IMG/VR virus record: IMGVR_UViG_3300021373_000717
Coordinates: 1-31,971 of that record
Origin: a virus
Reading direction: 5' to 3' (one strand)
DNA: 31,971 nucleotides
The translations under genes were made by a program, and so were the position numbers. The notes under the pieces were generated by a model that was given only the letters and a program-made list of their open reading frames with translations, was not told the DNA's origin and made no database searches. Of this stretch, positions 9,276 to 31,971 are shown in pieces; within the stretch, counting starts at the first letter, position 1; each line of letters starts with the position of its first letter.

Positions 9276-9301
9276 TGCCCTCCTTGTGGGGGCATTTTTT
9301 T
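9276..9301 (+). terminator. Rho-independent terminator of the rightward arm
   Basis: TGCCCTC (9276-9282) pairs with GGGGGCA (9288-9294) with one G-T wobble, a 5-base loop CTTGT, and seven Ts at 9295-9301. This ends the + strand replication operon. The T-run reaches into the stop codon of the opposing - strand gene (9300-9302). Read on the - strand the hairpin lacks a U tract, so leftward transcripts are probably not stopped here. Confidence 0.85.
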
Positions 9302-12300: not shown

Positions 12301-15300
12301 CGTAAGTATTTTTGCCGCGAGCCGTTCTTTAACTGAATTACTTTAAAAAGTTCATCAAGCTGTTTACCCAAATCCTGCATAAGCGGGTTCTGGTGATCTT
12401 TTATAAAATCAGCTATAGAGTTTAAAGGCAGTATGTTTAAGAACCACTGGTTCTTTTGATTAACAAAATCTGGTTGATCTATAAGCTTGTTGTACAGACT
12501 TATATCTGCTTTGGGTACAGCCCCACTTGCGTAAATACCTATTGTTTCATTGAGTATTTTGCGCTCGTTCTCTGCGGTCACTTCCATATTCAAACGCGCA
12601 GCATCTCTGAACTGCGGTGCGGGCGACATCATTTCACCCACTAAGTTGTCTACCGCGTTCTTTGCAGACCCTACTTTCTTGAAAGGTAAACCTCTAAACC
12701 TACGTATCAAGTTTTCTACTATATTTTTGAGACGCTCCAGCACTCCCAGCTTATTACCTTTTGTATCCATAGAGGCAAGTTTTGCTTGGAACTCAGGGTT
12801 AGAGAAAGCCTCTGCTATGAACTCATCTAGGTTGGTTGCACCGTATGCCGTATCTAGTCTGTCCCTTACGTCATCAAAAAGTTGCTGTAACTGTCTGGTT
12901 ACGGGGCTACTCTTGTTTGCTATTTCGTGTGAAGTAACAGCGTGCAGTGCTTCGTGTAGCAGTACATGAGTGGTTGGCACCATGTCTGCGTTTAGTATGA
13001 TGGTATTAGTTTTAGGGTCAAACGTGCCAGCCAGCAATTTGCCTTCGGGCGACATTAGGTTGGTTTCAAACGTAATTTTTGTGTTGCCGTCTTTTATCAA
13101 TGCGGCACTAATTGCCTTAGCGGTTTTAGCAACATCTTTACTGGTAGTAGTCGCTGCCAGTAGGTCTAACCCTTCAGTTAGCTTACCGTCTTTTAGCAGT
13201 TGGCCTATTTCTGGGTCTAGCGCCATAGTCGTAGACGCTATAGATACAGCCAGTAAGTTTTTACGTCCTTTGTTGTTTAAGGTGTCTATAACCTTATTTA
13301 ATTTTACTTTTGAATCCTTAGATAGATTTGCCACAGCCCAGTCTACATCAGCCCTAGCACCATCTTTTCCATCTACAAAATCTTTTGCTGTCTTCTGTAT
13401 CCAAGCATCAACACTAATGTCAGTGTCTGCTCTTGTTTCTATTTTATTCTCGTCAGATGCAAACTCCCCCTCACGCGCAGCCATTTGCTCATCGCCCATA
13501 GCATCAGGTTCTAAGTTTTCATCAAGGGCGTTGTTAGTAAGTGGTGCCTCACCGCCCGCTTTCGCCTGTATTCGTCGTTCTAGGTCTGCTTTCTTTTCTT
13601 CAAAATCAAGTTGTTTTTCAAAGTCATCATAAGAGTCAGTTGTTTCTTTTGTTTCTGCTGTTAATTCTTGTGCTGCTGGTTGTGCTGCTGTTGTTTCTTG
13701 TGCTGCTGTTGTTTCTTGTGCTGCTGGTTGTGCTGCTGGTTGTGCTGCTGGTTGTCTACGCGTGCCCCTACTCTGCGCTTCGGGTGTTATACCACCGCGT
13801 GGGCCAACCATAGGAACTTGTTCTTGAGGCTGCGATTCAGAACGCTCTAGCGCACGCTGTTCTGTAGCTATTTGTTGAGCAAGGTCTGCGCCTATAACAG
13901 CATCTTGTGCAGCTTGATCTCTAGGTTCCATACCGGGCATTTCTAATTGCGCTTGCCCTTCTACTGGAACTCCTCTTGTTAGTTCTGCTTGTAGGGCCGC
14001 CTGCATAGCAGTAGGAGTGCCTTCGGGTAGACTAGCAGCACGTTCTACTGCGGCCTGTTGTGCAGCTTCTTGTTTTGCTTTTAGCGTTGCTTTTAGTTCA
14101 GCTTGTCTTTGCTGTTCAGCCCGTTGCTCAAACGCTATATCTTGCTCTTCGCGTTTTATGCTTTCCTCTACGGCTTCTTCTATTGTTAATTGCTCAGGTG
14201 CCGCTCCACGAGCAATTTGCTCCATCTCAGGAGCTACTTCTAATGCTTCTTGCTGCGCGGTTTCTCTTTCTACAGCTTCAAAAGTAGGGCGAAACGCAGG
14301 TTCGTTAAGTAAAGCTACAGCACTTCTTTTGTTTTCAGGCTTAATGCGAGGGTTATTGGCATATTCAACTACAGCCCCTACTGCTGTCCTAGCTTGTGTA
14401 GGATCAGCTAAATCTAAACCTGCAATCGTTTTACCTAATTTTGTACTAGCCCCAATATTAAACGCCGCTAAATCTTTTGCGCTGTACGTTGTTTTGGGTT
14501 CTCCAGTTGGTAAGAGTGTCTGGGGTAGGTCTAACTGTGGGGCTTCTCTGCGTAACCTATCTGCTTCTGCAAAAAGAGCTTCTTGTTGCGCTATGGCTTC
14601 TGCATCTACATCAGAGGGTGTTTCAGCCAGTTCCGCTAGATCAATCGTAGTATCTTGTGTAGCTTCTTCCGTAGGTGCTTCTACAAACGTAGTGTCTTTA
14701 AGGCGTTCTGCCTCTTTTCTAGCTGCTGCTCTGCCAGTTACACTGCCGATTGGGCCAAGAGTACCGCCCACTGTAGCGGCGAGATATGCAGCCTCACCGT
14801 ATTCTGCTAAGGCTTCTTCAGACAATACGTCCAGACCAGCCTGTGCTCTTTCCAGAACTTGTTGTGCTACTTCTGTGGGCATTTCCGCAGCGGCACCAGT
14901 GGCAACACCACGGCCTACAGTACGAGTCAAACTACGGTTTGCGGTTGTGATTAACTTCTCGGCGTCTTTAGCGGCAGTTCCAACTTCGTCAAGTTGTTTG
15001 CCTATTACTTTACCTACGACACCTCTGCCCAGTATAAAATACTGCCCTATCAGTTCCGGCACGGCCTGCAATGCCGCAGTACCTACTGCTTTACCCGTGT
15101 CAATATCAACAGGACGTCCTTCAGCTATGTCTGTCTCTGCCTGACGTTCAATGTTGTACCCAGCAAATTGCGGTATGAGAGAGGCAAGTGCGCCAAGACC
15201 GCCCCCTATAGCAGTGCCGACAAAAGGCACAAAAGAACCTAAAGCGGCACCTGTGGCGGCACCTGCTGCTGTAGCACCTAATTGAGCGCCTTGCCCCGCT

Positions 15301-15686
15301 ACTGCTCGTGGGATCTGGCTTAGCGCGGTTCCAACGGTAGGTAGAATACCTTCGGCGTCTCGTACAGCTTGGAAAGACGGGCCTTCACCATACTTTTGAG
15401 CGATGTCTTCACTACGCTCTAGTGCAGCAAGAGCTGCTGCTTCATCATCACCTAGCACGGCTCCAGCAGTAGTGCGGAAAGCTGACGCGAGTGATTCCGC
15501 GCCACGCATAAGCTCCCCACCGATAGTGCTCTCAGGTGGAGGCGGGGGTTGAGTTACGTCTATACCTTCTTGGCGTCTGTAATAAGCACGTTCAGCTAAT
15601 GTTGCACCTTGCTCTCTGGTGGTGCCTTTTGGGACGTAGAAGTCAAACTTTTCCCCAGATGGGGCTGTGCCTTTTACGATGGGCAT
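9300..15686 (-). CDS. Giant multi-domain virion/ejection protein with metallopeptidase-like site
   Basis: 2128 residues, the last gene of the leftward arm; probably an internal virion protein delivered with the DNA. The N-terminus has a short domain ending YVPKGTTREQ, of a kind common at the start of such phage proteins. A Gly/Ala-rich hydrophobic stretch (about 129-175) and Glu/Gln/Ala-rich helical segments follow. A low-complexity Ala-Gln-Pro/Glu-Thr-Thr repeat lies around residues 645-673. A zincin-type motif LLHEALHAVTSHE (HEALH at 911-915, nt 12942-12956) is followed by EFIAEAF about 45 residues on, which can supply the third ligand. The second half is mostly helical, with a hydrophobic segment near 1580-1620 and a YKRFG motif near 1810. 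This resembles the 'large polyvalent protein' families. It starts 3 bases after the previous stop with a weak ribosome site. Confidence 0.75.
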   Translation of the reverse strand: MPIVKGTAPSGEKFDFYVPKGTTREQGATLAERAYYRRQEGIDVTQPPPPPESTIGGELMRGAESLASAFRTTAGAVLGDDEAAALAALERSEDIAQKYGEGPSFQAVRDAEGILPTVGTALSQIPRAVAGQGAQLGATAAGAATGAALGSFVPFVGTAIGGGLGALASLIPQFAGYNIERQAETDIAEGRPVDIDTGKAVGTAALQAVPELIGQYFILGRGVVGKVIGKQLDEVGTAAKDAEKLITTANRSLTRTVGRGVATGAAAEMPTEVAQQVLERAQAGLDVLSEEALAEYGEAAYLAATVGGTLGPIGSVTGRAAARKEAERLKDTTFVEAPTEEATQDTTIDLAELAETPSDVDAEAIAQQEALFAEADRLRREAPQLDLPQTLLPTGEPKTTYSAKDLAAFNIGASTKLGKTIAGLDLADPTQARTAVGAVVEYANNPRIKPENKRSAVALLNEPAFRPTFEAVERETAQQEALEVAPEMEQIARGAAPEQLTIEEAVEESIKREEQDIAFEQRAEQQRQAELKATLKAKQEAAQQAAVERAASLPEGTPTAMQAALQAELTRGVPVEGQAQLEMPGMEPRDQAAQDAVIGADLAQQIATEQRALERSESQPQEQVPMVGPRGGITPEAQSRGTRRQPAAQPAAQPAAQETTAAQETTAAQPAAQELTAETKETTDSYDDFEKQLDFEEKKADLERRIQAKAGGEAPLTNNALDENLEPDAMGDEQMAAREGEFASDENKIETRADTDISVDAWIQKTAKDFVDGKDGARADVDWAVANLSKDSKVKLNKVIDTLNNKGRKNLLAVSIASTTMALDPEIGQLLKDGKLTEGLDLLAATTTSKDVAKTAKAISAALIKDGNTKITFETNLMSPEGKLLAGTFDPKTNTIILNADMVPTTHVLLHEALHAVTSHEIANKSSPVTRQLQQLFDDVRDRLDTAYGATNLDEFIAEAFSNPEFQAKLASMDTKGNKLGVLERLKNIVENLIRRFRGLPFKKVGSAKNAVDNLVGEMMSPAPQFRDAARLNMEVTAENERKILNETIGIYASGAVPKADISLYNKLIDQPDFVNQKNQWFLNILPLNSIADFIKDHQNPLMQDLGKQLDELFKVIQLKNGSRQKYLRKVKDTTKELNKVFEKLGPKQRALFNLIIMESTLKRVDPSANIDLVTGKSKGFTARQYYEGFRYSYVREDGSEFRSAPMSKEARDAEVKKLKDVDKNTKVAITNPSDGKLEDFDLVFAEWNKLDPEAQRAYVTLKNAYATAYSELRSTLLKRIDKVPGNSEQEKAIKKDFKDKILLDLLNKESIEPYFPLFRKGDFWVNHQGFDKLTKGVEQYKVAFTTRKQRDEYIQALRTDPQLRQDLLTSKESTIVEARERGRAEVVARANAEGRQPTAQEIQDAEFETALEPLVATRPTGAKTEATSVDIRWANKLYADILSRRYAAAEKAKQDALAEGKSQEEADAIVANVQAAGSAISTIVQDAMLNALPERALESSFRKRKDVYGAEIDAIEVFSERMPAFMGQVDNLKFDVPLNDRENAIELAKNKLVGSESYEFADQVSEQAKGYIKFAKNPQVGTWARRLKGFGFMYTLGLNLSSALVNSFILPIVVLPFLAGKYGYRNTMKALFDATKLYMGTGMRRKADTFEGIGEGETKFDGPNLTNLNTDNLPDEVTEKYPGLGQLVRALDDRGAANASTVGDMIDVDNPTGNKFDRIQTTVNAVSGFMFHQGERLNRQVTAIAAYKLAVDKKIADNKKAGRGDTLTDEERTEIINQVMLDIEHTNSGALIDTAPKIAQGDIGSVLLMYKRFGISMAYLQMKMARLAFRRSPLNKDEKSEAKKQIVGLFGMSGLLAGAQGLPLYGVATELANLFLLDDEDDDAETIVARQLGEGPYSGVLNAMFGLDIAPRIGMTNLIHRTLPNKETESFAELVLDLGGGPLGGIFSRMFGAKRLLEEGYADRAFESVAPSAISGFAKSFRYARDGGATTLRGDPITQDLSPLVLAGQLFGFAPAGYTKSLEISGVEKRKDRNINQRKTKLLRQRYMAYRVGDFEGVRDVDQEINEFNRRNPEVRITGDTKARSLRQHRITSEMARMLGGITVSQRRYEKVLRSRLELLGEDDYFL
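13669..13752 (-). repeat. Ala-Gln-Pro / Glu-Thr-Thr coding repeat (copy 1)
   Basis: Tandem 12-base units TGTGCTGCTGGT (+ strand), interspersed with two 18-base units containing TGTTTCT, encode AAQP and ETTAAQ repeats in the giant protein. A 44-base stretch (13707-13750) is identical to 18859-18902 in another gene. Confidence 0.9.
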
Positions 15687-18201: not shown

Positions 18202-19395
18202 CTATGCTGGCATCATCTTGGTAGGGTTGATCTCTGGGCCTTGTTTGGTGGTGCCAGTGCGTTTATTTCGCACCCTATCCATCATTGAATATAGTTGTTG
18301 TGCTCCTGCATCAGAGTTGCCGTTGCCTAAATGACTAACCACATCAGCAGGTATTACAAATTCACCGTCGCTCAGAGCAGCGGGTTGTGTTCCGTCTATC
18401 GTTGCAGGTACCAGATCAGCCATACCGTCAGTAGGGCCACCTAGGTAGTAGCCTTGGGCTATACCACCTGCGGCATATCCGGATACACCCGCTCTACGCA
18501 AATAATCTGAGACTTCATCTACTGTAATGTTTTGATACTCAGGATACGCGGGGTTATTGCCGAAGTAACTTACGATTTCTTCAGGGCTTGTCCTGCCTTG
18601 AGCCGCCAGTTCAACTATAAGCCCCGGCACGCCCCCGGTATAACCTAAAGATTCCACAACTTGTTCAGGAGTTTGATAGCCACCACGTAAGAGTTCTTCA
18701 ATTACATCTCCCGTGGTTACACCAAAACGACCCGCAGCCATAGGGATAGTTGTCTCTCCAGCAGATATAGCTTGAGCAGCTATATCTCGTTCTTGCTGCG
18801 TGTAATCCCCGTCTACATCAATAAGTTGATACGGTGTTTTAGCTGCTGGTTGTGCTGTTGTTGTTTCTTGTGCTGCTGGTTGTGCTGCTGGTTGTGCTGC
18901 TGATTGTGCTGCTGATTGTGCTGCTGGTTGCGCTGCTGGTTGTGCTGCTGGTTGTGCTGCTGGTTGTGCTGCTGGTTGTGCTGCTGGTTGTGCTGCTGGT
19001 GCACCGGCGATCCCGCCAGCAGTTGCAGGTTGTTCTTGCTGTAGTGCTGCAAGCCCCAATAGTTCTTGACCCGCAGCTTCATAGGCTTGCTGTTGTTCTA
19101 GGGCCGCTTGGTTCATAGCAGCTATCTCTGCACCGCCTAATATGGCGTTGTCGGGGCCACGCGTAAAATCTACGTCCGTGAAATACCGTCTACCGGCTTC
19201 GCCGGGCCGTCTGCCTGTAGAATCAAAAGCGCTGGGTACAAGCGTGCGAGTAGCTGTATAATCAGGAATACCGCCCGTATAGCCTTGTGTACCGCTAGTT
19301 TGCCCTTTTCCACCCGTTGCCCCCAGTATTCCACCGAGTCCGGCACCTAGAATGCCGAGTGTTTCAGGACTTACTTCTTTCCCAAATAATTTCAT
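18202..19395 (-). CDS. Putative virion/ejection protein with AAQP repeats and conserved C-terminal module
   Basis: About 397 residues. I chose ATG 19395 rather than the upstream in-frame ATG at 19431, because GAGGCGGG directly precedes it and it lies one base after the upstream stop. The N-terminus has a Gly-rich hydrophobic segment (LGILGAGLGGILGATGG). An Ala-Gln-Pro repeat of eleven tetrapeptides follows. The C-terminus has YAAGGIAQGYYLGGPTDGM, then LSDGEFVIPADVVSHLGNG and YSMMDRVR. This C-terminal module recurs in marine phage genomes, to my knowledge without an assigned function. The repeat is probably a flexible linker between a membrane-active N-terminus and the C-terminal module (inference). 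Confidence 0.7.
   Translation of the reverse strand: MKLFGKEVSPETLGILGAGLGGILGATGGKGQTSGTQGYTGGIPDYTATRTLVPSAFDSTGRRPGEAGRRYFTDVDFTRGPDNAILGGAEIAAMNQAALEQQQAYEAAGQELLGLAALQQEQPATAGGIAGAPAAQPAAQPAAQPAAQPAAQPAAQPAAQSAAQSAAQPAAQPAAQETTTAQPAAKTPYQLIDVDGDYTQQERDIAAQAISAGETTIPMAAGRFGVTTGDVIEELLRGGYQTPEQVVESLGYTGGVPGLIVELAAQGRTSPEEIVSYFGNNPAYPEYQNITVDEVSDYLRRAGVSGYAAGGIAQGYYLGGPTDGMADLVPATIDGTQPAALSDGEFVIPADVVSHLGNGNSDAGAQQLYSMMDRVRNKRTGTTKQGPEINPTKMMPA
18842..19000 (-). repeat. Ala-Gln-Pro coding repeat (copy 2)
   Basis: About eleven 12-base units of TGTGCTGCTGGT type (+ strand), two with a G-to-A change giving Ser instead of Pro, plus one Glu-Thr-Thr-Thr unit at the 3' end of the coding repeat. 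It shares 44 identical bases with the repeat at 13707-13750. Confidence 0.9.
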
Positions 19396-19396
19396 C

Positions 19397-20866
19397 TTAC
19401 CCGCCTCGTAATATACGAAGTATTCTCTCAAAATCGTCTGTATTGCCTATCATACCACCCTCTGCGGCTCTTACTATGTCTTCTTCCTCTTCTTCTGTAG
19501 CTTGAAAAGGTTGTTCTAAGCCTCTTGCAAAGTCATATAGATAGTCGATGTCTACACTAGGGCCGGGGCCACCAGATACTGTACGAATACCGCCTGATGG
19601 GGCTGTAGTGCCGCCCCCTCCGCCTCCACCGCCTCCACCAGCAGCCGCAACGCTAGTTTTGGTTGGCTCTGGCAAAGAAGTTCTGGTGGAATCGGTTCGT
19701 TCGTTCGCTAATATTTCCTCTATTACTGCTTCTGGTAGAGAGGTTCTTTCTACTGCTACCTGTGCTTCTGGTAGTGAAACTCTGTCTACTGGTACTTGTG
19801 CTTCTGGTAGTGAAACTCTGTCTACTGGTACTTGTGCTTCTGGTAGTGAAACTCTGTCTACTGGTGGTAATTGGTCTGAGGTAGTAGGTATATCTAAAGT
19901 GTCTGGATCACCACCACTATCGACAGTATTATTCCCACTGCTATTGCTATCTCCATTAGGGTCTCCTAGTTTGTTTGGGTCATCCGATGGGGGAACTTTA
20001 GTGGTATCCACCCCCACAATAGTGTCTTTATCTTTATCTTTGTCTGTGGGTGCAACAGTGTTTACTAAAGTGCCAGTGGTAGGATTGGTAAATATGTCGC
20101 CTATCGCACCAGTAACATCTCCCCCACTAGGGACATTTAAGTCACCCGTTTCAGTAATTATAGCTTCGTCGCCAAAAACACCTGCTATAGCTTCATCTAA
20201 CGCAGGTATGCCTGTGGTTGCAGCAATAATAGTTCCGTCTTTTTCACCTACTTTTAGTGGTGTTTGAGTTCCTGCGTCACTGTATGACCCAGTAACAACG
20301 GGTTGCCCCGCTAGAATAGACGGTATGTTATAGAGCACTTGGTTAAAAGAAGGTATGCCCGCAGCAGCAGCGCCTGCACTTGGTGCGGCACCCACAGTTG
20401 TAACCCCACCTAAAATTTGATTCATCAGTGTTTCGGGTTTGCCCCCTACCGCTTCGTAGTTGGCACGGGCTACCTGCAATGCGTCTTGAGCATCGCGCTG
20501 ACCTTCAAAAAATGCTTCAAGCGACTCATCTGTGAATTTACCTGAATCATCCGTAAACCTTTCTGAGTCTATTGCTAAACCTTGGTTATACGCTTTTAAA
20601 TAAGCTACTGCTTCTGCAAATTTCTTTTCCGCACTTAAAAACTTCTTATCTTCGGCAATAGCCGCTTGATCTTCTTCTGAGAGCAAAGTCACGGCATCAG
20701 GAATATCTATAGCGCCTATGTCTATACCAGAAGGATCAATAAAATCCATACCAGAAAAATCAGGCTGTATATCCCGAAGAACCATTAAATCACCAAACGG
20801 GTCAAACCCCGGCTGTGGTTGTTGAGCATATATTTCGGGTATTTCTGCTGGTGCTGGTCTACTCAT
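19397..20866 (-). CDS. Putative virion protein with SLPEAQ repeats and poly-Gly
   Basis: 489 residues, acidic and low-complexity. The N-terminal part is Pro/Asp-rich. Residues about 65-155 include a charged helical region. The middle is Thr/Asp/Gly-rich and probably disordered. Three copies of a 12-residue unit containing VDRVSLPEAQ, plus degenerate ones, are followed by a run of ten glycines. The end carries EEEEE and then AAEGGMIGNTDDFERILRILRGG, a motif resembling MADGGIVG and YAAGGIAQG in the two downstream genes. No enzymatic motif is visible. The shared short motif and position suggest it belongs to the same internal-virion set. The stop lies one base before the next start. Confidence 0.65.
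   Translation of the reverse strand: MSRPAPAEIPEIYAQQPQPGFDPFGDLMVLRDIQPDFSGMDFIDPSGIDIGAIDIPDAVTLLSEEDQAAIAEDKKFLSAEKKFAEAVAYLKAYNQGLAIDSERFTDDSGKFTDESLEAFFEGQRDAQDALQVARANYEAVGGKPETLMNQILGGVTTVGAAPSAGAAAAGIPSFNQVLYNIPSILAGQPVVTGSYSDAGTQTPLKVGEKDGTIIAATTGIPALDEAIAGVFGDEAIITETGDLNVPSGGDVTGAIGDIFTNPTTGTLVNTVAPTDKDKDKDTIVGVDTTKVPPSDDPNKLGDPNGDSNSSGNNTVDSGGDPDTLDIPTTSDQLPPVDRVSLPEAQVPVDRVSLPEAQVPVDRVSLPEAQVAVERTSLPEAVIEEILANERTDSTRTSLPEPTKTSVAAAGGGGGGGGGGTTAPSGGIRTVSGGPGPSVDIDYLYDFARGLEQPFQATEEEEEDIVRAAEGGMIGNTDDFERILRILRGG
19749..19862 (-). repeat. 36-base tandem repeat coding SLPEAQ units
   Basis: Three units at 19749-19784, 19785-19820 and 19821-19856 plus the start of a fourth. The second and third are identical and the first differs at two positions. 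Each encodes 12 residues containing SLPEAQ. A diverged relative (ERTSLPEA) flanks them in the protein. Confidence 0.9.
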
Positions 20867-20873
20867 ATCTCAC

Positions 20874-21527
20874 CTACGGCGTCGGCAGTGTTTCAGGCAG
20901 TGCTGAAACAAGAACTACGGTTACTAGAGTAGACGGTACGGCAGGGCGGGGACTTGAAGCCGCCATATAATCTATTGTTATGCCTGTATCGTCTGTTGCC
21001 CACATAAGTTCTATGTACTGCCCTGCTGTTATATCTATGGTAAAACTGTATTCAAAATCATCTACGCCGCCAGAACCTGCTATGACGTGCATCCTGCCAG
21101 TGTTCGCTATGTCTACTCCACTTCTTCGTACCCAGAAGGACAACTCCTTAGAGTTAGCGTTGGTACTAGTTAACTCTACCGAAAGCTCAAAGTTGTAAAC
21201 CCCTGAATGTATTGGAGTTATTCTTGTCTTTGGGGTGCCTGTTACACTTATGGCTTCCCCTAGATACGTATTCTCAAACTGCAACGCATACGCTGTATCA
21301 GGCGAAGCAGCGTTCTGATCTACCGTAGAAAAGAACTTACCGTTCGGGGACTCTATAAACTGTCCGCCATATTCCCCGGTTAACAAGTTTACATTATTAG
21401 CTAACCTATTGAAAAACAAACGCAAAATATTGTTCAGGTCATCTAAGTATGTCCGCAGAATATTCGTTTCAGGTGGTATCGGCAGGGCGGGAGCTTCTAC
21501 CTTATTTATACTATCCCGCGATGCCAC
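20874..21527 (-). CDS. Jelly-roll-like virion protein
   Basis: 217 residues, beginning at GTG 21527, which overlaps the upstream stop as TAGTG; GGAGGGG lies just before it. The N-terminal about 55 residues are helical (YLDDLNNILRLFFNRLANNVN). The rest is beta-rich with PNGKFFSTVDQNA, HSGVYNFELSVEL, SFWVRRSGVDIANT and GQYIELMW, the pattern of C1q/TNF-like jelly-roll domains often found in phage head or tail decoration proteins. An N-terminal trimerising helix plus a jelly roll would suit a small fibre or spike. It is placed between the tail/connector protein and the internal-virion genes. Function is inferred from fold pattern. Confidence 0.65.
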   Translation of the reverse strand: MASRDSINKVEAPALPIPPETNILRTYLDDLNNILRLFFNRLANNVNLLTGEYGGQFIESPNGKFFSTVDQNAASPDTAYALQFENTYLGEAISVTGTPKTRITPIHSGVYNFELSVELTSTNANSKELSFWVRRSGVDIANTGRMHVIAGSGGVDDFEYSFTIDITAGQYIELMWATDDTGITIDYMAASSPRPAVPSTLVTVVLVSALPETLPTP

Positions 21528-23416
21528 TAGCCCCTCCTACCGTCAGGCCGCATATCCATCCTAGGTGCGCCTAGTTTCCACGTTACTCCTGCTGCTGTAG
21601 ACTCAATCTTAATCGACATCTGCCTACCCCGTACCCGTATAAAGACCTGCCCGGTAAACTCCTCTACAGGCACTGTGGCTGTTCTAGTAACAGTAGCGTT
21701 GCTGTTTCCACCCACAGAAGCTGGGTTATACCGCCCAGAACCCGAGTCTTTCAAAGGGTTTAGAGTCATCGTAGCTGCTGGAGCACCAGTTGTAGAACCC
21801 TCAAAGGTCATGTCTGGCAACATCTTGTTAACCAGCATAAACCGATCCCCGTCATCCAGATCAAACTGCGTCGAGGTTATACTAGCCGGTATGGCCGCAG
21901 GGACGCCTGTCTCGTTGTCGTCCACGCCTTTTTCATGGTTGACTAGTTTGTTGGTAAAAGTAGCAGCTATAGGAAAGTCACGTAGGTCAGAGTCAAGCCA
22001 TGCAGATCGTGCCAGATTACCGTAGTACCAGATGTTTTGTACGTAGTTATACACCACGTAGCGGTCATTCTGAGTAGCGCCCGCAGAACAATAAAACCAC
22101 CATATTTCGTCAAACTGCTCGTTGGAGCCGCAAATTACTTGGTCAGCTTGGCCTTGGTTAAAGTCATCAAATATATAGCTACGCAACTCGCAAGGTAGTG
22201 TCTTAACAGTACCATCGTAGTAGTAAAACTTGTTTATGCCCATCCAGTAGGCAATGTTGTTTGAGTACACAGCCGAATTCGGCCCAGCTATGGTAATGTT
22301 TGAGCCAAGGAGCTGCGCTCCCCATACCTCTGGAGCACCTAGATACTGTAGGCCGTACAGGGCTGCATCTGACCAGACCAACACTTCTTGCCGTGCTTGG
22401 ATAGCGTCTACGATTTCTGTACCTTCTGACAGACGTAAACTACCTGCTTGGTTAGTAGCCGCAGGTGTCCAGTTAGCTGCGTCTTCTTGGTCTGACCATC
22501 GGATAAGCATAGGGTCTATGCCAGCACTACCAATCTCGTTTGCCCCAAAACAGAACGCAAAGCGGAATATGTCAGATACAAACGCTAGATTTACTACAGT
22601 AGGTACATCGGACGCACCTCCCAAAGAACTTACAGCAACAGCACGTGTATTAACCCCGTTACTTGCGTCCCAGTAGTATGGTGCTCCGCCCCTGTGGGCA
22701 AAGAATAAGTCCTCACCGAAGTTAGACTGACTCCAGATACGCATAGGCGCCAATGTTGTACCACCTGTACCCCACGTCCCAGTACCCCAACGCCCTGCAC
22801 CCCAACCAGTAAACGGTACCTCAATCTCGTTACCCGTATTGATTTGGTAGGTGCCTACTGTGCTGCCGCCACTGTTACCTGTATCTGACCCGTTAGCCAG
22901 CACAGTATTGCCAGAAGTGTCCTTGGCCTCTACTGTGTAGGAATTGCCGTTAATTATGGTAGCTATTTGGTACTCTTGATTGAGCACAGCCGCAGTAATA
23001 TTGCCGCCTAGAGAAGCAGCTCCAGAGAAAGTTACAAAGTCATTCTGGAGGGCGCCATGAGAAGCATCGGTTACAGTAAGAGTGGCATCGCCGTTTACGG
23101 CTGCAAATGTAACATCGCCCGCTGCTGTGGTTGCTCTAATAGGGGTAACGTCAAAGTAAGCCCCACCTCGCTCAATGTAGTATTTGAGGTGAGTACCTAC
23201 AGAAACAAGATTCTGAAGACTAAGAGTAGCCCAGTTGAATAGCGAACGCGCTACACCTAGGTAAGTATTAGCAGAGAGCTGCTCCCACCCGCCTATTTTC
23301 TGGGGTAGGCCACGTCTGAAGCGCACCTTATCAGTCTCGTACCACTGACCTTCGGCGGCATACCGGGTAGTTTCTCTGTTTACTCCCGGTTTGAATTGTA
23401 ATTTTCTAACTGCCAT
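21527..23416 (-). CDS. Large tail/connector structural protein, possible nozzle or stabilisation protein
   Basis: 629 residues, beta-rich throughout, with no enzyme motif. The N-terminus FKPGVNRETTRYAAEGQWY and RRGLPQKIGGWEQL is a pattern I know from phage structural proteins placed near the tail tube or head-tail connector. Repeated Trp/Gly-rich strands (GWGAGRWGTGTWGTGG, RIWSQSNFGEDLFFAHRGG, IWWFYCSAG) suggest a beta-propeller-like body comparable to T7 gp12 or P22 gp10. An Ig-like insert may lie around residues 100-190. GAGG precedes ATG 23416 with good spacing. The lysozyme gene ends 7 bases upstream of it. The structural class is fairly sure; the exact tail role is inferred. Confidence 0.6.
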   Translation of the reverse strand: MAVRKLQFKPGVNRETTRYAAEGQWYETDKVRFRRGLPQKIGGWEQLSANTYLGVARSLFNWATLSLQNLVSVGTHLKYYIERGGAYFDVTPIRATTAAGDVTFAAVNGDATLTVTDASHGALQNDFVTFSGAASLGGNITAAVLNQEYQIATIINGNSYTVEAKDTSGNTVLANGSDTGNSGGSTVGTYQINTGNEIEVPFTGWGAGRWGTGTWGTGGTTLAPMRIWSQSNFGEDLFFAHRGGAPYYWDASNGVNTRAVAVSSLGGASDVPTVVNLAFVSDIFRFAFCFGANEIGSAGIDPMLIRWSDQEDAANWTPAATNQAGSLRLSEGTEIVDAIQARQEVLVWSDAALYGLQYLGAPEVWGAQLLGSNITIAGPNSAVYSNNIAYWMGINKFYYYDGTVKTLPCELRSYIFDDFNQGQADQVICGSNEQFDEIWWFYCSAGATQNDRYVVYNYVQNIWYYGNLARSAWLDSDLRDFPIAATFTNKLVNHEKGVDDNETGVPAAIPASITSTQFDLDDGDRFMLVNKMLPDMTFEGSTTGAPAATMTLNPLKDSGSGRYNPASVGGNSNATVTRTATVPVEEFTGQVFIRVRGRQMSIKIESTAAGVTWKLGAPRMDMRPDGRRG

Positions 23417-25263: not shown

Positions 25264-25494
25264 CTAGGTTTCGGATGACTTTCCCTCAGTATCCTCCTCG
25301 ACGATCTCGTCGATGGTTTCACATACATCAGGAACAGCTACGCCTGTAGTTACTTCAGTAGCCACACGCCCCACAGCCCGAATGCCTTTATAGACACCAG
25401 AGCAATACAGGTCTTTATTAGCGATCATATCCTCAGACACCGTGCATCCGGTGAATACAAATAAACTACTCAGGATTAGGGAAATCGATTTCAT
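25264..25494 (-). CDS. Small predicted lipoprotein
   Basis: 76 residues. The start MKSISLILSSLFVF is a short signal peptide followed by FTGC, so Cys17 would be lipidated (lipobox -3 Phe is unusual but tolerated). Thr at +2 predicts outer-membrane sorting. The mature part is about 60 residues with two further Cys (YCSGVY and DVCETI) that could form a disulfide, and an acidic end. The gene overlaps the lipase gene by 29 bases, with AGAGG upstream of ATG 25494. Possible roles are an outer-membrane spanin subunit, a superinfection-exclusion lipoprotein, or a protein guarding against the neighbouring lipase. None can be chosen from sequence alone. Confidence 0.7.
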   Translation of the reverse strand: MKSISLILSSLFVFTGCTVSEDMIANKDLYCSGVYKGIRAVGRVATEVTTGVAVPDVCETIDEIVEEDTEGKSSET

Positions 25495-26239
25495 CTTCTA
25501 TCCTCTTCAGCTCTCTTAGTTCGCCTTTGGTTAGGGGGACAACCTTCTTGGCTTCTCGCTCCTGCCCGTCAAGGAACAGCTTCAGCCTTTCTTTATAGCC
25601 GTCCATCATGTGGTCTGCTATACGGTCTTTCAGATCGCCCCTGTCAGCAACTCTGGTGTCTTTGCTTGGGTTTATATAGTCAGGGCCGGTATTGCTGAAA
25701 TACAGCATAGTCTGTGAGCTTGAAGGGCCGTAACAAAAGCGTGGGATTCTAGCCACCATATCGCTGCCCTGCACACAAGATATTTGGTTATCCAGCGTCA
25801 TTGGCTTTTTGAAGCCCTTGAAGAACACGTTTGGCTTACCGAAAGTAATTAAGTTTATATTGTCGTGCCTACCGTTCAACATAGAGGCAGATAGCTCTGC
25901 TAACGCACCACCAAGACTATGGCCGCAAATCAACGTGCGTTTCTTGGGGTCTATGTGTTTCTTAACTTCTTTCCAGACTGACTTATGCGCCATAGCAAAC
26001 CCGCCGTGACACAGCCTACCCGCATATGGCACGGGGACTACGAGCGCGTCTGTTAACCAATCCCTGCCCTGCTGTGTACCCCTGAAGGCTATTATGTCTA
26101 TGGTCTTACGCTTTGCCACATATACTGTAGTTGATGTCCACTTGCTCTCTATGTGAATAGCATCTACTTTGTTCCGCTTTTTGTAGGCGTTCATCGCCCA
26201 GCTACAAGCCATATTAAGCAGTACGGGATCGAGTTTCAT
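25466..26239 (-). CDS. Class 3 lipase (alpha/beta hydrolase)
   Basis: 257 residues; ester hydrolase of the lipase class 3 family (fungal-type). Visible features are the oxyanion-side IIAFRGTQQGRDWLTD (about 49-64), the nucleophile elbow GHSLGG with Ser108, a strand with ITFGKPNVF, the acid in VQGSDMVARIP (Asp160), and His210 in RIADHMMDGY. The Ser-Asp-His triad is therefore complete and activity is likely. No signal peptide is present, so it would act in the cytoplasm, be released at lysis, or be carried in the virion. It overlaps the upstream small membrane protein by ATGA and the downstream lipoprotein by 29 bases. A lipase in a phage lysis/tail region is uncommon. The substrate (phospholipid or host surface lipid) is unknown. 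Confidence 0.85.
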   Translation of the reverse strand: MKLDPVLLNMACSWAMNAYKKRNKVDAIHIESKWTSTTVYVAKRKTIDIIAFRGTQQGRDWLTDALVVPVPYAGRLCHGGFAMAHKSVWKEVKKHIDPKKRTLICGHSLGGALAELSASMLNGRHDNINLITFGKPNVFFKGFKKPMTLDNQISCVQGSDMVARIPRFCYGPSSSQTMLYFSNTGPDYINPSKDTRVADRGDLKDRIADHMMDGYKERLKLFLDGQEREAKKVVPLTKGELRELKRIEDEIDFPNPE

Positions 26240-26463
26240 TTATCAGCCTTGTTTTCTAGTCGCTTGAAGATTGCACCCAACAAGTCTTTGATCTCGCGTA
26301 TGTCTTCGCGGTAATCGTCTTTAGCAACGTACTTTTCAGGTATCGTTTTCATCTCGGAGTCAATACGGTCTAGTAGGGTATAGATGCGGGTGTACGCCCA
26401 CGCCGCCAGAAAGCCACCGATCAGGATAATTACATCAAAGACTATCTGACCCGTAAGTTGCAT
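26236..26463 (-). CDS. Small membrane protein with C-terminal coiled coil
   Basis: 75 residues: one hydrophobic segment at about 6-26 (IVFDVIILIGGFLAAWAY) and a charged, probably coiled-coil C-terminus (about 28-75, DYREDIREIKDLLGAIFKRLENK). The layout fits an inner-membrane spanin-like subunit, an antiholin or a haemolysin XhlA-like protein. It starts a cluster with the lipase, lipoprotein, holin and lysozyme, so a lysis role is plausible. The stop overlaps the lipase start (ATGA) and the start overlaps the upstream stop (TAATG). Confidence 0.65.
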   Translation of the reverse strand: MQLTGQIVFDVIILIGGFLAAWAYTRIYTLLDRIDSEMKTIPEKYVAKDDYREDIREIKDLLGAIFKRLENKADK

Positions 26464-26720
26464 TACTCAGACTCGCGTGGGTCTACCCAACCTTCTACTG
26501 CCGTGAACGTGCCGTCAGCCGCGCAGGTGTACTTGCACCCATACCAATCTTCAGGCTCTGTAACTCCAGTGATAAGAGTGGCATTGCCGCTGTTGAGATC
26601 ACCAATGATAAACTCAGCAGGATCGCCCACAGTAATTGTGTCGCTTCCCATCGTGACTGATTTGTCATCAGCAAAGAGATATCTGGATGTGTTCGTTGCA
26701 TTGTCTACAATTGTCTTCAT
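26463..26720 (-). CDS. Small tail-associated protein of unknown function
   Basis: 85 residues, beta-rich and acidic, with TSRYLFADDKSVTM, GDPAEFIIGDLNS and PEDWYGCKYTC. I know similar small proteins from marine phages next to fibre genes, without assigned function. It could be a fibre-assembly chaperone or a small tip subunit. It is the first gene after the two large fibres; a weak AAAGG lies 9 bases before ATG 26720. Confidence 0.6.
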   Translation of the reverse strand: MKTIVDNATNTSRYLFADDKSVTMGSDTITVGDPAEFIIGDLNSGNATLITGVTEPEDWYGCKYTCAADGTFTAVEGWVDPRESE

Positions 26721-26723
26721 GTT

Positions 26724-29261
26724 TTAACCTTTCAGTAAAAGTGTTGTGTTAGCTATTGCCTTTCCAGCCGTCACGCTGGAAGACGTTGTGGAAAGTGTGC
26801 CATCGTCTTGGACGTAGTAGGTGCTTCCGATTGTGAGGTTGGGTACTGCGCCTGTAAGCTGTAAAACAATACCCGTGCCGTAGTTTGAGTTTCCCTCGTC
26901 ACGATATGTAATAACTGATCTATTTATATTTGCGTTGTAAGAAACTGCAATGTTTTTTGTGCTCGCTGCATTGAAGGTAACAGGAGTGCCAAAACTTATA
27001 CTCGTGCCACTTACAGTACCAATAGCATAGTTACCGTTATCTGGAGTTGTATCTTCATCACGATAAGCAAATATAAATACATTTGATGTGGTATCGAACG
27101 CGCCTCCGTAAGAATCGCTGCCAGCCAACGCAGCTATAACTGTCGCATCACCAAATGAGATAGACGTTCCTGATACTGTCCCAACCACCGCTGTAGGAAC
27201 TTGACCATTTTTATAGGCTATAATTGTTTTATCATTTGAAGGATCATACACAGTAACATTGTCATATATGATAGAGGAATTATAAGTTACTTGAGTACCC
27301 ACACTAGGTGTAGTTCCACTTACTGAAATAACAACTGCTGCACCGTAATAGGAATTGTTTACATCTTGAAAAGATAATACATACTTGTTAGCAGTCGTAT
27401 CATAAGCCAAACTTTGTTGACGCGCATCTGCTGTCGCAGTGCTGGCCGTAGACCCTACGGATACTGATGTTCCAGAAACAGTTAATACTGTCGCCTTGCC
27501 TACGTTACTTCCTGTATTGTATGTAGTTAAGTGGTTAGCGGTATCTGGACTGTAAGCTAAAGTAGCAAAAAATCCACCGTCTGCTACTATAGATACCGCT
27601 GTTCCGAATGAAATGCTTGTTCCGCTAACCGTGCCAACGATTGCTTTACCCGTGTCGCTGTTATCGTCGTCTTGATAAACAATTAAAACCTTGTCTTGTC
27701 CTGTGTCATAGCTAATAGCTATGTATTTAGTAGTCACGTTGCTAAAGGCAACAGGAGTGCCGTAGGTAATAGAGTTATCTGATGCAGGTGTAGCAACCAC
27801 TGCATATCCATAATTACTTGTGCCTCTCCAAGCAATGATTGTTTTATTGCTGTCAGGATCGTAGCAACTAGCGGTATATTCTGTGGCAGATGTTTGGAAG
27901 ACAGCTTCAGAACCAAGCGTTCCTGTATAAGCCAAAGGCAACAACGACCCGTTAGTAATCACCCCGCCCTCGACAACCACCTCGCCTGATGCAGAGTTGT
28001 TGATAGCTTGGTTGGTGATGCCTGCGAAGTTGTCAGATGTGGTTCCTGCGTTGGCCCATATAATGCCTGTGCCGTAACTGCTGTTGCCCTGATCCTTATA
28101 AACAATCGCAGTATTTTTAGCAGATGAATTGTAAGCAGCCCATATATAGTCATTCGCCGCTGTACCAAAAACTTGCGGCGTACTGGTGGTAACAGTTGTT
28201 CCTGAAAGAGTTACGGGAACAACATAACCTTTACTGGAATCATTTTGGTCTTGGTACGCAACATTAAATATACCTGAACTGCTATCGTAGGCAATAGACG
28301 GATAAGATGCGTTTGTCCCTGAAACAGTTACCGCGCTTCCTACCGCAAACCCAGACCCACTTGTATTACCAGCTTGTATGGTGAGAATTCCGCCGCTACC
28401 GCTATCGTGCCAAGCAGCTACAAATTTATCGTCTGTTGGGCTGTAGGCTATGCCTATATATTGATTCGTGCCATTAGAATCAAGTTGCGTTGAACTTCCG
28501 AAGCTAATCGACGTTCCGCTTACAGTGCCTGAAATAATCTCAATACCTGTTCCATTATAAATTATGATAACTTTGTTATTTGTTGAGTCAAAGGTTATAC
28601 CGATTCTGTATGATTCTCCCCCGTCTATATCTGTGGCACTGCCAAAGCTAATCGACGTTCCGCTTACCGTGCCGACTATCGCTTTGCCTTTATTAGAATC
28701 ACCCGCATCTCTATAGGCGACCACTACTTTATCCGCAGCGGTCTCATAGGTAGCTGCATTCCAAAAAACATTTGCAGACTCATAAACAACTTTAGTTCCA
28801 AAGCTAATACTCGTCCCGCTTACAGTGCCAACATTTGCAGTTCCATAGTTGCTGTTTGCTCCATCTCTATAGACCACTATTACTTTATATGTGTCTGGAT
28901 CGTATGTGCCACCAATATAACTCACATCGTTTCCAGTGCTGAATTGAACAGCCGTACCCCAGCTAATTGAGTTCCCTGTAACGGTTCCCACAGCAGCTTT
29001 TCCTTTGTTGGAGTCACCGGCGTCTGAGTAAAATACAACTATCTTATCGTTATATGAATCGTAAACTACAACAGAGTATGTAGTGTTGGCTGCCTCAAAA
29101 ATAGCCGCTGACCCAAAACCAGCAGCCGTAGCTTCAACTGCTTTAACAGTCCCATCACTCTGCAAGATTACAGTTTGACCAGTAGCCAGATTACCACTGG
29201 CCGTGGCCGTTATGACTTTTGCGCCGCCACCTGCTGGCAGTAAATCGCTTAGATTGCTCAT
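26724..29261 (-). CDS. Tail fibre-like protein, two seven-repeat beta-propeller blocks (paralogue 2)
   Basis: 845 residues, probably receptor-binding. Layout: a short N-terminal module (GQTVILQSDGTVKAV, to about 47), a block of seven repeats (48-402), a linker module (NFAGITNQAINNSASG...GGVITN, 403-446), a second block of seven repeats (447-799) and a C-terminal module (GSTYYVQDDGTLSTTSSS, 800-845). Each repeat is about 50 residues with a strand like VGTVSGTSISFG and one like YDxxxxKVVIAYRD. Seven repeats in about 353 residues is the size of a seven-bladed propeller. Residues vary much more here than in the upstream paralogue, and some repeats lack the VSGTSIS core. The start overlaps the upstream stop (ATGA). 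Fibre function is inferred from context and repeat style. Confidence 0.75.
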   Translation of the reverse strand: MSNLSDLLPAGGGAKVITATASGNLATGQTVILQSDGTVKAVEATAAGFGSAAIFEAANTTYSVVVYDSYNDKIVVFYSDAGDSNKGKAAVGTVTGNSISWGTAVQFSTGNDVSYIGGTYDPDTYKVIVVYRDGANSNYGTANVGTVSGTSISFGTKVVYESANVFWNAATYETAADKVVVAYRDAGDSNKGKAIVGTVSGTSISFGSATDIDGGESYRIGITFDSTNNKVIIIYNGTGIEIISGTVSGTSISFGSSTQLDSNGTNQYIGIAYSPTDDKFVAAWHDSGSGGILTIQAGNTSGSGFAVGSAVTVSGTNASYPSIAYDSSSGIFNVAYQDQNDSSKGYVVPVTLSGTTVTTSTPQVFGTAANDYIWAAYNSSAKNTAIVYKDQGNSSYGTGIIWANAGTTSDNFAGITNQAINNSASGEVVVEGGVITNGSLLPLAYTGTLGSEAVFQTSATEYTASCYDPDSNKTIIAWRGTSNYGYAVVATPASDNSITYGTPVAFSNVTTKYIAISYDTGQDKVLIVYQDDDNSDTGKAIVGTVSGTSISFGTAVSIVADGGFFATLAYSPDTANHLTTYNTGSNVGKATVLTVSGTSVSVGSTASTATADARQQSLAYDTTANKYVLSFQDVNNSYYGAAVVISVSGTTPSVGTQVTYNSSIIYDNVTVYDPSNDKTIIAYKNGQVPTAVVGTVSGTSISFGDATVIAALAGSDSYGGAFDTTSNVFIFAYRDEDTTPDNGNYAIGTVSGTSISFGTPVTFNAASTKNIAVSYNANINRSVITYRDEGNSNYGTGIVLQLTGAVPNLTIGSTYYVQDDGTLSTTSSSVTAGKAIANTTLLLKG
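26865..27923 (-). repeat. Seven-repeat block 2 of fibre paralogue 2
   Basis: Residues 447-799: seven copies of a strand pair centred on the positions SNKTIIAW, QDKVLIVY, ANHLTTY, ANKYVLSF, NDKTIIAY, SNVFIFAY and INRSVITY. The lengths sum to a seven-bladed propeller. Confidence 0.7.
28056..29120 (-). repeat. Seven-repeat block 1 of fibre paralogue 2
   Basis: Residues 48-402: seven copies centred on NDKIVVFY, TYKVIVVY, ADKVVVAY, NNKVIIIY, DDKFVAAW, GIFNVAY and KNTAIVY. Confidence 0.7.
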
Positions 29262-31798
29262 GTGCTGTAATCCAGATTGATGCTTGTGGTGGACATCGCT
29301 TTGCCAGCGGTCACTGAAGAAGATGTGGTGCTAAGTGTGCCGTCATCTTGGACGTAGTAGGTCGTGTTAGGCACGAGGTTTGGATATGCGCCTGAAACCT
29401 GCAACCCTTTTGCCGTTCCGTAGTTACTGTTACCAGTATCTTTGTAAACGACCACAGAAGTATTTTGATTAGAATCAAAAGTAGCAGCCATATAAGCAAG
29501 ATTATTGCTAATCAGACTTACAGCAGAACCGTAAGAGATGGATGTTCCAGATACGGTTCCGATGCGGTAATAGCCAAGACTACTTGATTTGTAAAAGAAA
29601 ATTATTTTGTTATCACTGCTATCGAAAGTGGTAGCACCTAAGTTATGCACCTCTTCAATAACAAGTTCCGTTCCAAAAGATATACTTGTTCCCGAAACAG
29701 TACCGACCACTGATCCAGTATAGTCGCTATTGTATGCGTCCCTGTAATTTATAACGACTTTTCCAGCATTCGAGTCAAAAGCAGCAGAAAGATTTTGTCC
29801 AGCCACGCTTCCTATTGCTACCCTAGTTCCAAAAGAAATAGAAGTTCCACTTACTGTACCTACAATGCCGTATGTACCGCCGCCTGCAATACTGTAAGGT
29901 ATAACTACTTTGTTATTAGTAGAGTCAAAAACAAAATTACCAAAGGCAGCACTCAACGGCCCTGTTGAGTCCACCACCACCTCAGTTCCAAACGATATAG
30001 AAGTGCCAGAGACTGTGCCAACGATTGTAGTTAAATATTGACTGTTTCCATCGTCACGGTATCCAGCAACCACTTTGTTAGAATTACTATCGAATGTCGC
30101 ACCTATAAATGTAGTAGCGGCTGAAGCGAAAACCACCTCAGAACCAAAGGATATTGACGTTCCTGAGACTGTCCCAACGATAGCCGTGCCGTATTCCGAG
30201 TTCGCTACATCCGAATAGACTATAACTACTTTGTTATTGCTGGAATCAAAGGTAACATCTACATAGCTGGTTGAGGCCGCTGCAAAAACTACAGGAGTCC
30301 CCCACGATATACTTGTGCCTGATACCGTACCCACTGCACAAGTACCGTGTTGATTACTATCGTCTTTATAAGCCACCACGATTTTGTTATTACTGCTGTC
30401 GAACGCTATGCCCTGATACTCGGTTGCAGTGGACTGGTACACCGCCGCAGAGCCTAGTGATCCTGTATAGGCAAATGGCAACAACTGACTGTTGGTCACC
30501 ACACCGCCCTTCATCGTGATATTGCCGCTTGCTGCGTTGGATATGGCTGCGTCTGCTATGCCGAGGAAGCTGGTGGCACTCGTTGATAAAGCTCGGAAAA
30601 CCACCGCTGTGCCGTAATCTGAATTACCAGCATCTTGATAGGCTATGGCAACTGTTGAAGCGTTAGAGTCATAAACAGCGTTGATGTACTGTGATGCAGC
30701 CCCTTCAAACTGAACAGCACTGCTAAAAGAAATGGACGTTCCGCTTACCGTGCCAGTTAGAACCTCTCCCGCACTATTATTATTGTTATAAGCTATAACT
30801 ACTTTTTTAGCGTTGGTATCATAAGCTACTGAGGGGTAAGTGGTAGACGCATTGTGAAAGTTTGTTGTACTCCCAAAACTAATAGACGTACCAGACACAG
30901 TGCCGACCACAGCTTTACCATAGTTGCTGTCACTACTGTCTCTATAAACAATAACCACTTTTTGGGCATTAGCATCATAGGCTATTGAAGTTTCTTCGGA
31001 AGAAGTAGAGTTGTATGTCGTAGTCGATCCAAAAGAAATTGAAGTGCCACTAACAGTGCCGACGACAGCCGTACCGTTATTAGAGTTACCATGATCTTTA
31101 TAAGCTAAAACTACTTTTTGTGCGCTGGCATCATACGTTATCGCTAAGTTTGTGTTAACTCTATTCTCAATTGATTGGGCGCTGCCAAAGCTGATAGATG
31201 TACCACTTACAGTGCCTACGATTGCTCCACCGTATTCATTGCTCGTTGTTTGATAAAAAATAACAACTTTTTGAGCGTTAGCATCGTAGGTGATTGCAAA
31301 GTTGTCGCTATTTTGAGATTCAAAAACAACAGGAGTTCCAAAGCTGATGGACGTTCCGCTCACAGTGCCTACTATTGCAGTGCTAGAGTTAGAATTGCCA
31401 GCGTCCTTATAAGCTATAACCACTTTTTGAGCATTCGTGTCATAAGCGACAGCGGAGTATCTAGTAACCGCGCTTTCAAATACCACAGGAGTTCCAAAGC
31501 TGATGGACGTTCCGCTCACAGTTCCGACCACAGCAGTGCCGTAGTTTGAGTTGCCAGTGTCCCTGTAAGCTATAACTACCTTTTGCGCGTTAGCGTCATA
31601 AGCTGCTCCAATCTCAGTAGCCCCTGCACTCTCGTACACAACAGGACTGCCAATCGCTTGAGCCACACCGCTAACAGCTTTTACAGTTCCATTGCTTTGT
31701 AATGCCACAGTCTGGCCGCTAGATATAGCCCCATCAGCAGTAAAACTTAGCTGCTTACTGGCCGCACCCGCTGGTAAAAGATCGCTAAGATTTGTCAT
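29258..31798 (-). CDS. Tail fibre-like protein, two seven-repeat beta-propeller blocks (paralogue 1)
   Basis: 846 residues with the same architecture as the downstream gene: N-terminal module (GQTVALQSNGTVKAV), seven repeats (48-401), linker module (FLGIADAAISNAASG...GGVVTN, 402-446), seven repeats (447-798) and C-terminal module (TTYYVQDDGTLSTTSSS, 799-846). Repeats here are very regular, with nearly every one carrying VGTVSGTSISFG and YDxNAQKVVIAYxD or FDSSNNKVV. Two adjacent repeat units share 38 identical bases (31329-31366 and 31485-31522). This gene is probably a virion fibre or surface-binding protein, with the propellers presenting variable loops. No enzymatic residues are recognisable. 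The start overlaps the stop of the upstream partial gene by ATGA. Confidence 0.78.
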   Translation of the reverse strand: MTNLSDLLPAGAASKQLSFTADGAISSGQTVALQSNGTVKAVSGVAQAIGSPVVYESAGATEIGAAYDANAQKVVIAYRDTGNSNYGTAVVGTVSGTSISFGTPVVFESAVTRYSAVAYDTNAQKVVIAYKDAGNSNSSTAIVGTVSGTSISFGTPVVFESQNSDNFAITYDANAQKVVIFYQTTSNEYGGAIVGTVSGTSISFGSAQSIENRVNTNLAITYDASAQKVVLAYKDHGNSNNGTAVVGTVSGTSISFGSTTTYNSTSSEETSIAYDANAQKVVIVYRDSSDSNYGKAVVGTVSGTSISFGSTTNFHNASTTYPSVAYDTNAKKVVIAYNNNNSAGEVLTGTVSGTSISFSSAVQFEGAASQYINAVYDSNASTVAIAYQDAGNSDYGTAVVFRALSTSATSFLGIADAAISNAASGNITMKGGVVTNSQLLPFAYTGSLGSAAVYQSTATEYQGIAFDSSNNKIVVAYKDDSNQHGTCAVGTVSGTSISWGTPVVFAAASTSYVDVTFDSSNNKVVIVYSDVANSEYGTAIVGTVSGTSISFGSEVVFASAATTFIGATFDSNSNKVVAGYRDDGNSQYLTTIVGTVSGTSISFGTEVVVDSTGPLSAAFGNFVFDSTNNKVVIPYSIAGGGTYGIVGTVSGTSISFGTRVAIGSVAGQNLSAAFDSNAGKVVINYRDAYNSDYTGSVVGTVSGTSISFGTELVIEEVHNLGATTFDSSDNKIIFFYKSSSLGYYRIGTVSGTSISYGSAVSLISNNLAYMAATFDSNQNTSVVVYKDTGNSNYGTAKGLQVSGAYPNLVPNTTYYVQDDGTLSTTSSSVTAGKAMSTTSINLDYST
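29405..30460 (-). repeat. Seven-repeat block 2 of fibre paralogue 1
   Basis: Residues 447-798: seven repeats centred on NNKIVVAY, NNKVVIVY, SNKVVAGY, NNKVVIPY, AGKVVINY, DNKIIFFY and QNTSVVVY. Confidence 0.75.
30596..31657 (-). repeat. Seven-repeat block 1 of fibre paralogue 1
   Basis: Residues 48-401: seven repeats, each with a strand like AQKVVIAY (six copies; the seventh is ASTVAIAY), separated by VGTVSGTSISFG-type strands. DNA identity is high between several repeats. Confidence 0.78.
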
Positions 31799-31971
31799 GT
31801 CAAATCCATCATGTTAATTGTTGTGGCGGTAACAGCCTGTCCTATCTTCACCGCTGGGCTTGTGCTTGTCGTGGTCACCGTGCCATCGCTTTGGACGTAG
31901 TAGTCAGAGCCTATGGTCAGCGAAGATTGCTTGCTGTTGATACTGCCCTTGACGTTGATCTTGCCTGTTGC
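31795..31971 (-). CDS. C-terminal end of another tail protein sharing the fibre C-terminal module (5' end outside window)
   Basis: The last 58 codons of a gene that enters from the right edge; the stop TGA at 31795-31797 overlaps the ATG of the next gene (ATGA). The visible protein starts ATGKINVKGSINSKQ and continues LTIGSDYYVQSDGTVTTTS, ending in INMMDLT. YYVQSDGTVTTTS matches YYVQDDGTLSTTS in both downstream fibre proteins, so it carries the same C-terminal module. Here the module is uninterrupted at the site where the other two have their second propeller block. Nothing can be said of its N-terminal part. Confidence 0.75.
   Translation of the reverse strand, partial: ATGKINVKGSINSKQSSLTIGSDYYVQSDGTVTTTSTSPAVKIGQAVTATTINMMDLT

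Follow-up and report, generated by a model that had tools for sequence, protein, structure and literature searches.

Two adjoining genes at the end of a viral DNA record encode repeat proteins of almost equal length, and the questions they raise are what fold the repeats form, how the propeller-like blocks are joined to the rest of each chain and what the proteins do for the virus. The window, meaning the whole stretch of DNA that was analyzed, is the linear IMG/VR viral record IMGVR_UViG_3300021373_000717 (31,971 bases). A first-pass annotation made from the letters of the window had given the positions and near-equal lengths of the two proteins correctly (P1, 846 residues; P2, 845 residues), and had proposed tandem seven-bladed β-propellers. 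Taking the evidence below together, we put at roughly two in three (0.68) the probability that P1 and P2 are host-recognition proteins, most likely tail fibers, of a short-tailed marine phage that carry exchangeable propellers in a conserved β base.

Organization of the Propeller Gene Cluster

The plus strand of the window carries replication genes (DNA polymerase, exonuclease, helicase, primase and a gp2.5-like SSB) and the minus strand carries virion and lysis genes, including those for an ejection protein and an endolysin. Also on the minus-strand side, positions 21527-23416 encode a 'stabilization'-type protein with kin among Pelagibacter and Roseobacter phage proteins. From its replication, virion and lysis gene content the window therefore probably derives from a short-tailed marine phage. 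The genes for P1 and P2 overlap by 4 nt, and the proteins are 45% identical. The pair had been annotated as two binders, yet the cluster is a trio: the 3' end of a third paralogue, gene 1, lies directly upstream at the edge of the window, so that at least three propeller genes are present (Table 1). A scan of viral contigs for homologues yielded 80 loci (loci are labelled L001 and so on), and in L001-L003 the orthologue of gene 1 is a single-propeller protein of 484 residues. Three further minus-strand genes of the window may be recorded here. The gene for a class 3 lipase (25466-26239; PF01764, E 4e-19; phrog_21992 esterase/lipase) has the propeller cluster on one side and the lysis genes on the other. 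A 2128-residue protein (9300-15686) matches DarB-like antirestriction and tape-measure/tail-lysin profiles and is probably an ejected internal virion protein, while a 409-residue protein in the virion gene region (18202-19431) contains about ten AAQPAAQP-type repeats in a row.

Table 1. Positions in the window of the propeller genes, their domain segments and the neighboring small gene
Feature	Position	Strand	Basis
Gene 1 (third, upstream paralogue), 3' end only within the window	31795..31971	-	
P1, 846-residue two-propeller protein, gene 2 of trio	29258..31798	-	ORF, blade profile, AlphaFold2
P1 head segment, residues 1-45, first base-domain piece	31664..31798	-	
P1 propeller 1, residues 46-402, 7 blades	30593..31663	-	
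P1 'linker', residues 403-446, middle base-domain piece (tail profile positions 5-36)	30461..30592	-	
P1 propeller 2, residues 447-803, 7 blades	29390..30460	-	
P1 tail segment, residues 804-846, last base-domain piece	29258..29389	-	
P2, 845-residue two-propeller protein, gene 3 of trio	26724..29261	-	ORF, blade profile, AlphaFold2
P2 head segment, residues 1-45, first base-domain piece	29127..29261	-	
P2 propeller 1, residues 46-403, 7 blades	28053..29126	-	
P2 'linker', middle base-domain piece	27921..28052	-	
P2 propeller 2, residues 448-804, 7 blades	26850..27920	-	
P2 tail segment, last base-domain piece	26724..26849	-	
85-residue protein adjoining the propeller genes	26463..26720	-	Homology to ICBM2 gp48 N-terminal domain

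Seven Blades per Propeller

Manual splitting of P1 gave 7+7 units of 48-53 residues each (about 52 residues per blade), and a blade profile recovered the same arrangement in P1 and P2 alike, with anchors running from residue 77 to 386/387 in the first set of seven and from 476/477 to 784/785 in the second. The repeat counts and block lengths that had been obtained by eye are thereby confirmed. When propeller 1 of P1 is compared with itself under BLOSUM, the mean score peaks at a period of 52 residues (1.68) and is 0.07 or less at all other periods from 30 to 69, and the repeat is therefore far from chance.

When P2 alone was used as a query against the viral contigs a single relative was recovered; the blade census itself covers 112 distinct complete ORFs with blades, both window proteins included. 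Freely varying repeat numbers, which the first-pass annotation had named as an observation that would speak against propellers, are not what these homologues display. By the blade profile 102 of the 112 distinct proteins hold complete sets of seven only, arranged as one set (83 proteins), as 7+7 with a spacer (11) or as fourteen in one run (8). Most of the ten exceptions are as long as a full set (e.g., 487, 490, 507, 854, 869 and 871 residues), so that blades were probably missed by the profile in most of them; some are shortened ORFs, and one (L028) has one extra weak blade match. The 2350-residue relative at L089 has 28 blades in four sets of seven, with a complete base domain after each set. 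Among distant relatives, those of high divergence or without the phage base may depart from seven: five blades were detected in the 412 residues of L096, and at least eight contiguous blades in L092, a bacterial surface protein cut by the contig end. The seven-blade count is thus a structural constraint and a rule of the family.

The relatives fall into two size classes, of 460-510 residues (one propeller) and of about 850 residues. Several single-propeller proteins (L028, L030, L032, L036, L040, L051, L057, L070 and L074) bear N-terminal extensions of about 130-550 residues, that of L028 with weak matches to phrog_29288 and Mtd_N. The L089 gene (5448-12500), in which the module is repeated as a whole, lies on a contig that was binned as a Euryarchaeota MAG and is probably viral. 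The proteins of L092 (2-2761, Staskawiczbacteria) and L094 (7929-9431, Peregrinibacteria MAG) are secreted-looking bacterial proteins with GTVSGTDISFG blades and no phage base.

Predicted Structure of P1 and P2

For P1, AlphaFold2 was run on an alignment of 53 sequences (A3), which omits two sequences whose second propellers were misplaced in an earlier family alignment (A2), and returned a mean pLDDT of 90.1 with the propeller blocks mostly at 90-98. For P2, an alignment of 12 sequences gave a mean pLDDT of 82.0. The monomer structure check that accompanied the propeller proposal thus yielded a confident all-β propeller prediction for both proteins. Each blade in the models has the strands expected of an approximately four-stranded propeller blade. 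The pTM values are 0.61 (P1) and 0.49 (P2), and the models are therefore not a reliable guide to how propellers and base are placed against each other.

For both models Foldseek ranks highest, among PDB entries, the double WD40 propellers of Elp2 and of small-subunit-processome proteins (E about 2e-14); BFVD contains viral relatives of both sizes (865 residues, 38%; 474 residues, 39%). Elp2 and the other double WD40 proteins (PDB 5m2n, 4xfv) share with P1 and P2 two seven-bladed propellers per chain, whereas they are eukaryotic, are 6-9% identical and lack an insertion in a cement-like base, so that the likeness is one of fold. In the sequence pattern a d strand precedes blade 1 (in P1 residues ~45-50, ahead of VVYES) and the last blade is without a d strand of its own, a strand order that suggests velcro closure of the ring; the putative closure is read from this pattern together with the Foldseek matches, which are closed rings. 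We conclude that the seven-bladed propellers are real in both P1 and P2. An open repeat array (solenoid), its number fixed by chance or by recent common ancestry, would sit well with the eight or more contiguous blades of the cellular relative L092, but we regard it as very improbable since seven is kept down to 28-35% identity, whether a protein has one set, two or four, since the other blade type of the family (see below) holds at five units, and since the predicted structures match closed propellers.

Sequence searches of the PDB with P1 and the family profile had antibody chains as their best matches (E of at least 0.056), and in PHROGs P1 and P2 had no match beyond one at 0.003. P1 also matches PF18050 (Cyclophil_like2, 54.8 bits), as do L053 and L060, but no single stretch is significant and the match was dismissed as an artefact of the repeats.

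A Base Domain Interrupted by Propellers

The two propellers of the first-pass annotation stand, while the 44-45 residues between them are not a spacer but belong to an interrupted base domain. In the single-propeller class one unbroken conserved stretch, described by a tail profile, makes up the C-terminal 78 residues. In P1 positions 5-36 of this profile align with residues 405-436 and positions 38-77 with residues 806-843, and the profile is split in the same way in P2 (at 38) and in L001, L002, L004, L005 and L022. At the end of gene 1 the linker is continuous with the tail, and site 2 is without a propeller. Because the tail profile is unbroken in the small class and split in P1 and P2, the second propeller is placed in a loop of the base domain; the first propeller is probably an insertion too, since head and tail flank it as well. 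In a second large class both seven-bladed propellers lie in loop 1.

Depending on the protein, the split point of the base is empty or filled by a seven-bladed propeller or by an unrelated five-unit propeller. In L053, L054 and L060 about 265 residues at the same loop comprise five units of about 52 residues with Pfam SGL matches, and in L014, L025 and L066 this five-unit repeat occupies loops further along the base. The five-unit repeat profile gives six partial matches because its register cuts the five units, and direct reading finds five DGTK-type motifs. The DGTKMY-type propeller of these inserts is also present in gp51 of the Lentibacter phage vB_LenP_ICBM2 (Zobellviridae, Cobavirinae).

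For searching only, head and tail pieces were joined with the propellers left out. The best E value against PF09956 (phage cement) thereby changed from 8e-4 for the tail alone to 1.7e-5 for the joined pieces, and the joined base of the gene 1 orthologue L001:3924-5378 exceeded the cut-off of 24 bits with a score of 25.5, in an alignment that extends from the head into the tail and spans positions 5-92 of the 103 in the profile. The match crosses the joint, which supports head, linker and tail as one discontinuous domain, and on sequence grounds we read residues 1-45, 403-446 and 804-846 as its pieces. Eight other joined bases, including those of P1 (13.7 bits) and P2, fall below the PF09956 cut-off, and others match PF22758 (E217 gp24/Pam3 gp6 cement) and PF23982 (XM1 minor capsid), likewise below cut-off. 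A weak match of the base to the 'capsid stabilization protein' of PDB 8qsy covers positions 17-108 (E 0.31). The likeness to the PF09956 and PF22758 cement proteins thus extends from head through tail of the joined base, but most matches lie below the curated cut-offs and the base described here is interrupted by propellers.

Gene Context and the Location of the Proteins in the Virion

Capsid cement proteins are found on heads, not tails. The profile matches, of which one exceeds the PF09956 cut-off, together with the weak match to 8qsy would fit a capsid decoration whose base rests on the head lattice and whose propellers, displayed from the capsid surface, attach the virion weakly to cells or particles in place of tail-based receptor recognition. 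We consider this arrangement unlikely in view of the genes that surround the propeller cluster. The 85-residue protein encoded beside P2 shares 37% identity (E 1e-13) with the N-terminal half of gp48 of ICBM2, a protein whose C-terminal half is a PF16778 tail assembly chaperone domain; PF16778 is absent from the 85-residue protein, which matches the gp48 N-terminal domain only. Its gene family comprises 71 loci (some records overlapping), and in 63 of the 64 cases that could be tested a propeller gene is no more than 50 bp away. The constant small neighbor of the propeller genes is a relative of a tail assembly chaperone protein. At L110 the genes for terminase, portal and head protein are followed first by tail-type genes, among them one for a phrog_24210 'tail fiber' protein, and then by the propeller genes; the phrog_24210 protein is encoded two genes upstream of the cluster, which stands beside tail-type genes and does not adjoin the major head protein. 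In ICBM2 the related genes belong to a variable region to which tail fibers, fiber connectors or tail assembly proteins have been assigned (PMC6775973). Gene context therefore favors a tail location, against which the cement-like base weighs most.

Probable Replacement of Single Propellers

Between the window and L001 or L002 the DNA around and between the propellers is about 94% identical (93-96%). These stretches run from the tail of gene 1 into the head of P1, from the P1 linker through P1 propeller 2 and tail into the P2 head, and from the P2 tail into the gene for the 85-residue protein, and they include the P2 linker. Propeller 1 of P1 is only 44% identical in protein to its L001 counterpart between nearly identical flanks, while propeller 2 is 95% identical; in P2 the two propellers are 32% and 53% identical to their L002 counterparts. 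The breaks in identity fall within about 20 residues of the domain boundaries. The same disparity within a chain is seen between L022 and L050 (propeller 2, 93%; propeller 1, 26%) and, with the sites reversed, between L010 and L080 (propeller 1, 88%; propeller 2, 34%), and the closest relative differs by propeller (L025 at 71% for P1 propeller 1, L001 at 95% for P1 propeller 2). The simplest reading of these alignments is that whole propellers have been replaced by recombination; rapid divergence of single propellers is a less probable alternative. The diversification expected of a receptor binder is found in the propellers while the base is conserved (about 94% nucleotide identity versus 32-53% protein identity), the base being presumably the part that faces the virion.

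Variable Loops on a Constant Scaffold

Over 939 distinct blades and orthologous positions the mean entropy is 2.87 bits in the d-a loop, 2.20 in the b-c loop, 1.74 in the a-b loop and 0.78 in the c-d loop, and the variability of d-a and b-c is present in every blade. In the standard propeller topology these two loops lie on one common face. In the 53-sequence alignment invariance within the propellers is confined to scaffold serines in the recurring VSGTS turn, and no blade-specific set of conserved acidic or histidine residues is found there. Variable loops that are expected to share a face, combined with a lack of blade-specific invariants, agree better with a fixed scaffold that carries a binding face than with a catalytic site common to the propellers. 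The β-propeller is a common fold among enzymes and the five-unit inserts match SGL/lactonase Pfam families, so that each propeller could be a surface-polysaccharide hydrolase or lyase (depolymerase); with scaffold serines as the sole invariants, however, we hold such an activity to be improbable.

Selection had been proposed to act on the closed propeller and not on its residues, but the nearly invariant c-d hairpin implies strong sequence selection at least there. The GTVSGTSIS nonapeptide occurs in 12 copies in P1 whose pairwise nucleotide identity is 0.67 against an expected 0.66 +/- 0.01; its synonymous codons are randomized, and it is therefore conserved as protein. Recent amplification of blades at the DNA level was rejected on the same comparison, the codons being as different as codon usage predicts.

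Proposed Mechanism and Relation to Known Phage Propellers

In the host-recognition model that we prefer, each protein carries a propeller at both sites, 1 and 2, of a small base that would anchor it to the virion. The ends of a propeller would lie together, the first d strand closing blade 7, which would make it pluggable into a loop. The variable face would touch a surface sugar or protein, a change of cassette would lead to recognition of a different host, and the 85-residue neighbor would probably help fiber assembly. A wider proposal, to which we give even odds, is that of a socket system in which a cement-like base offers loops that take closed seven- or five-blade propeller cassettes, with gene trios setting host range, in a widespread and undescribed marine phage family.

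The nearest cultured counterpart is ICBM2, whose gp49 (AYP28108.1) has the same blade type and base, is encoded between tail assembly chaperone genes and is a Foldseek structural match (E 1.6e-21), and whose gp51 is of the five-unit blade type. Both differ from the window proteins in having one propeller per protein, are about 26-32% identical and are annotated as hypothetical proteins. The receptor-binding protein of Staphylococcus phage phi11 has a β-propeller platform with a proposed sugar pocket (PMC4901313), and is comparable as a propeller in a phage protein that binds a receptor; its propeller is five-bladed, single in the chain, borne with a triple-helix stem and not inserted in a base domain, and PDB sequence searches with P1 and the family profile found no relation to it. 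PhiKZ gp131C (PDB 4GBF) is a seven-bladed propeller at the baseplate periphery with a suggested role in receptor binding (PMC4901313), but the propeller is a C-terminal domain, one per chain, and gp131C is absent from the sequence matches and from the structural matches listed for P1 and P2. Literature searches found no description of a propeller-in-base-loop architecture. New here are this loop-insertion architecture, the two kinds of blade with fixed numbers and the cassette-wise change.

Phage propeller receptor binders have so far been known singly (phi11, PhiKZ), and the proteins described here make up an entire family with a fixed blade count per blade type, built via loop insertion. Such a build allows the binding domain to be replaced without touching the virion anchor. 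The family offers a natural comparison of a conserved base with a variable face for the study of phage receptors in marine bacteria, and ICBM2 is a cultured relative.
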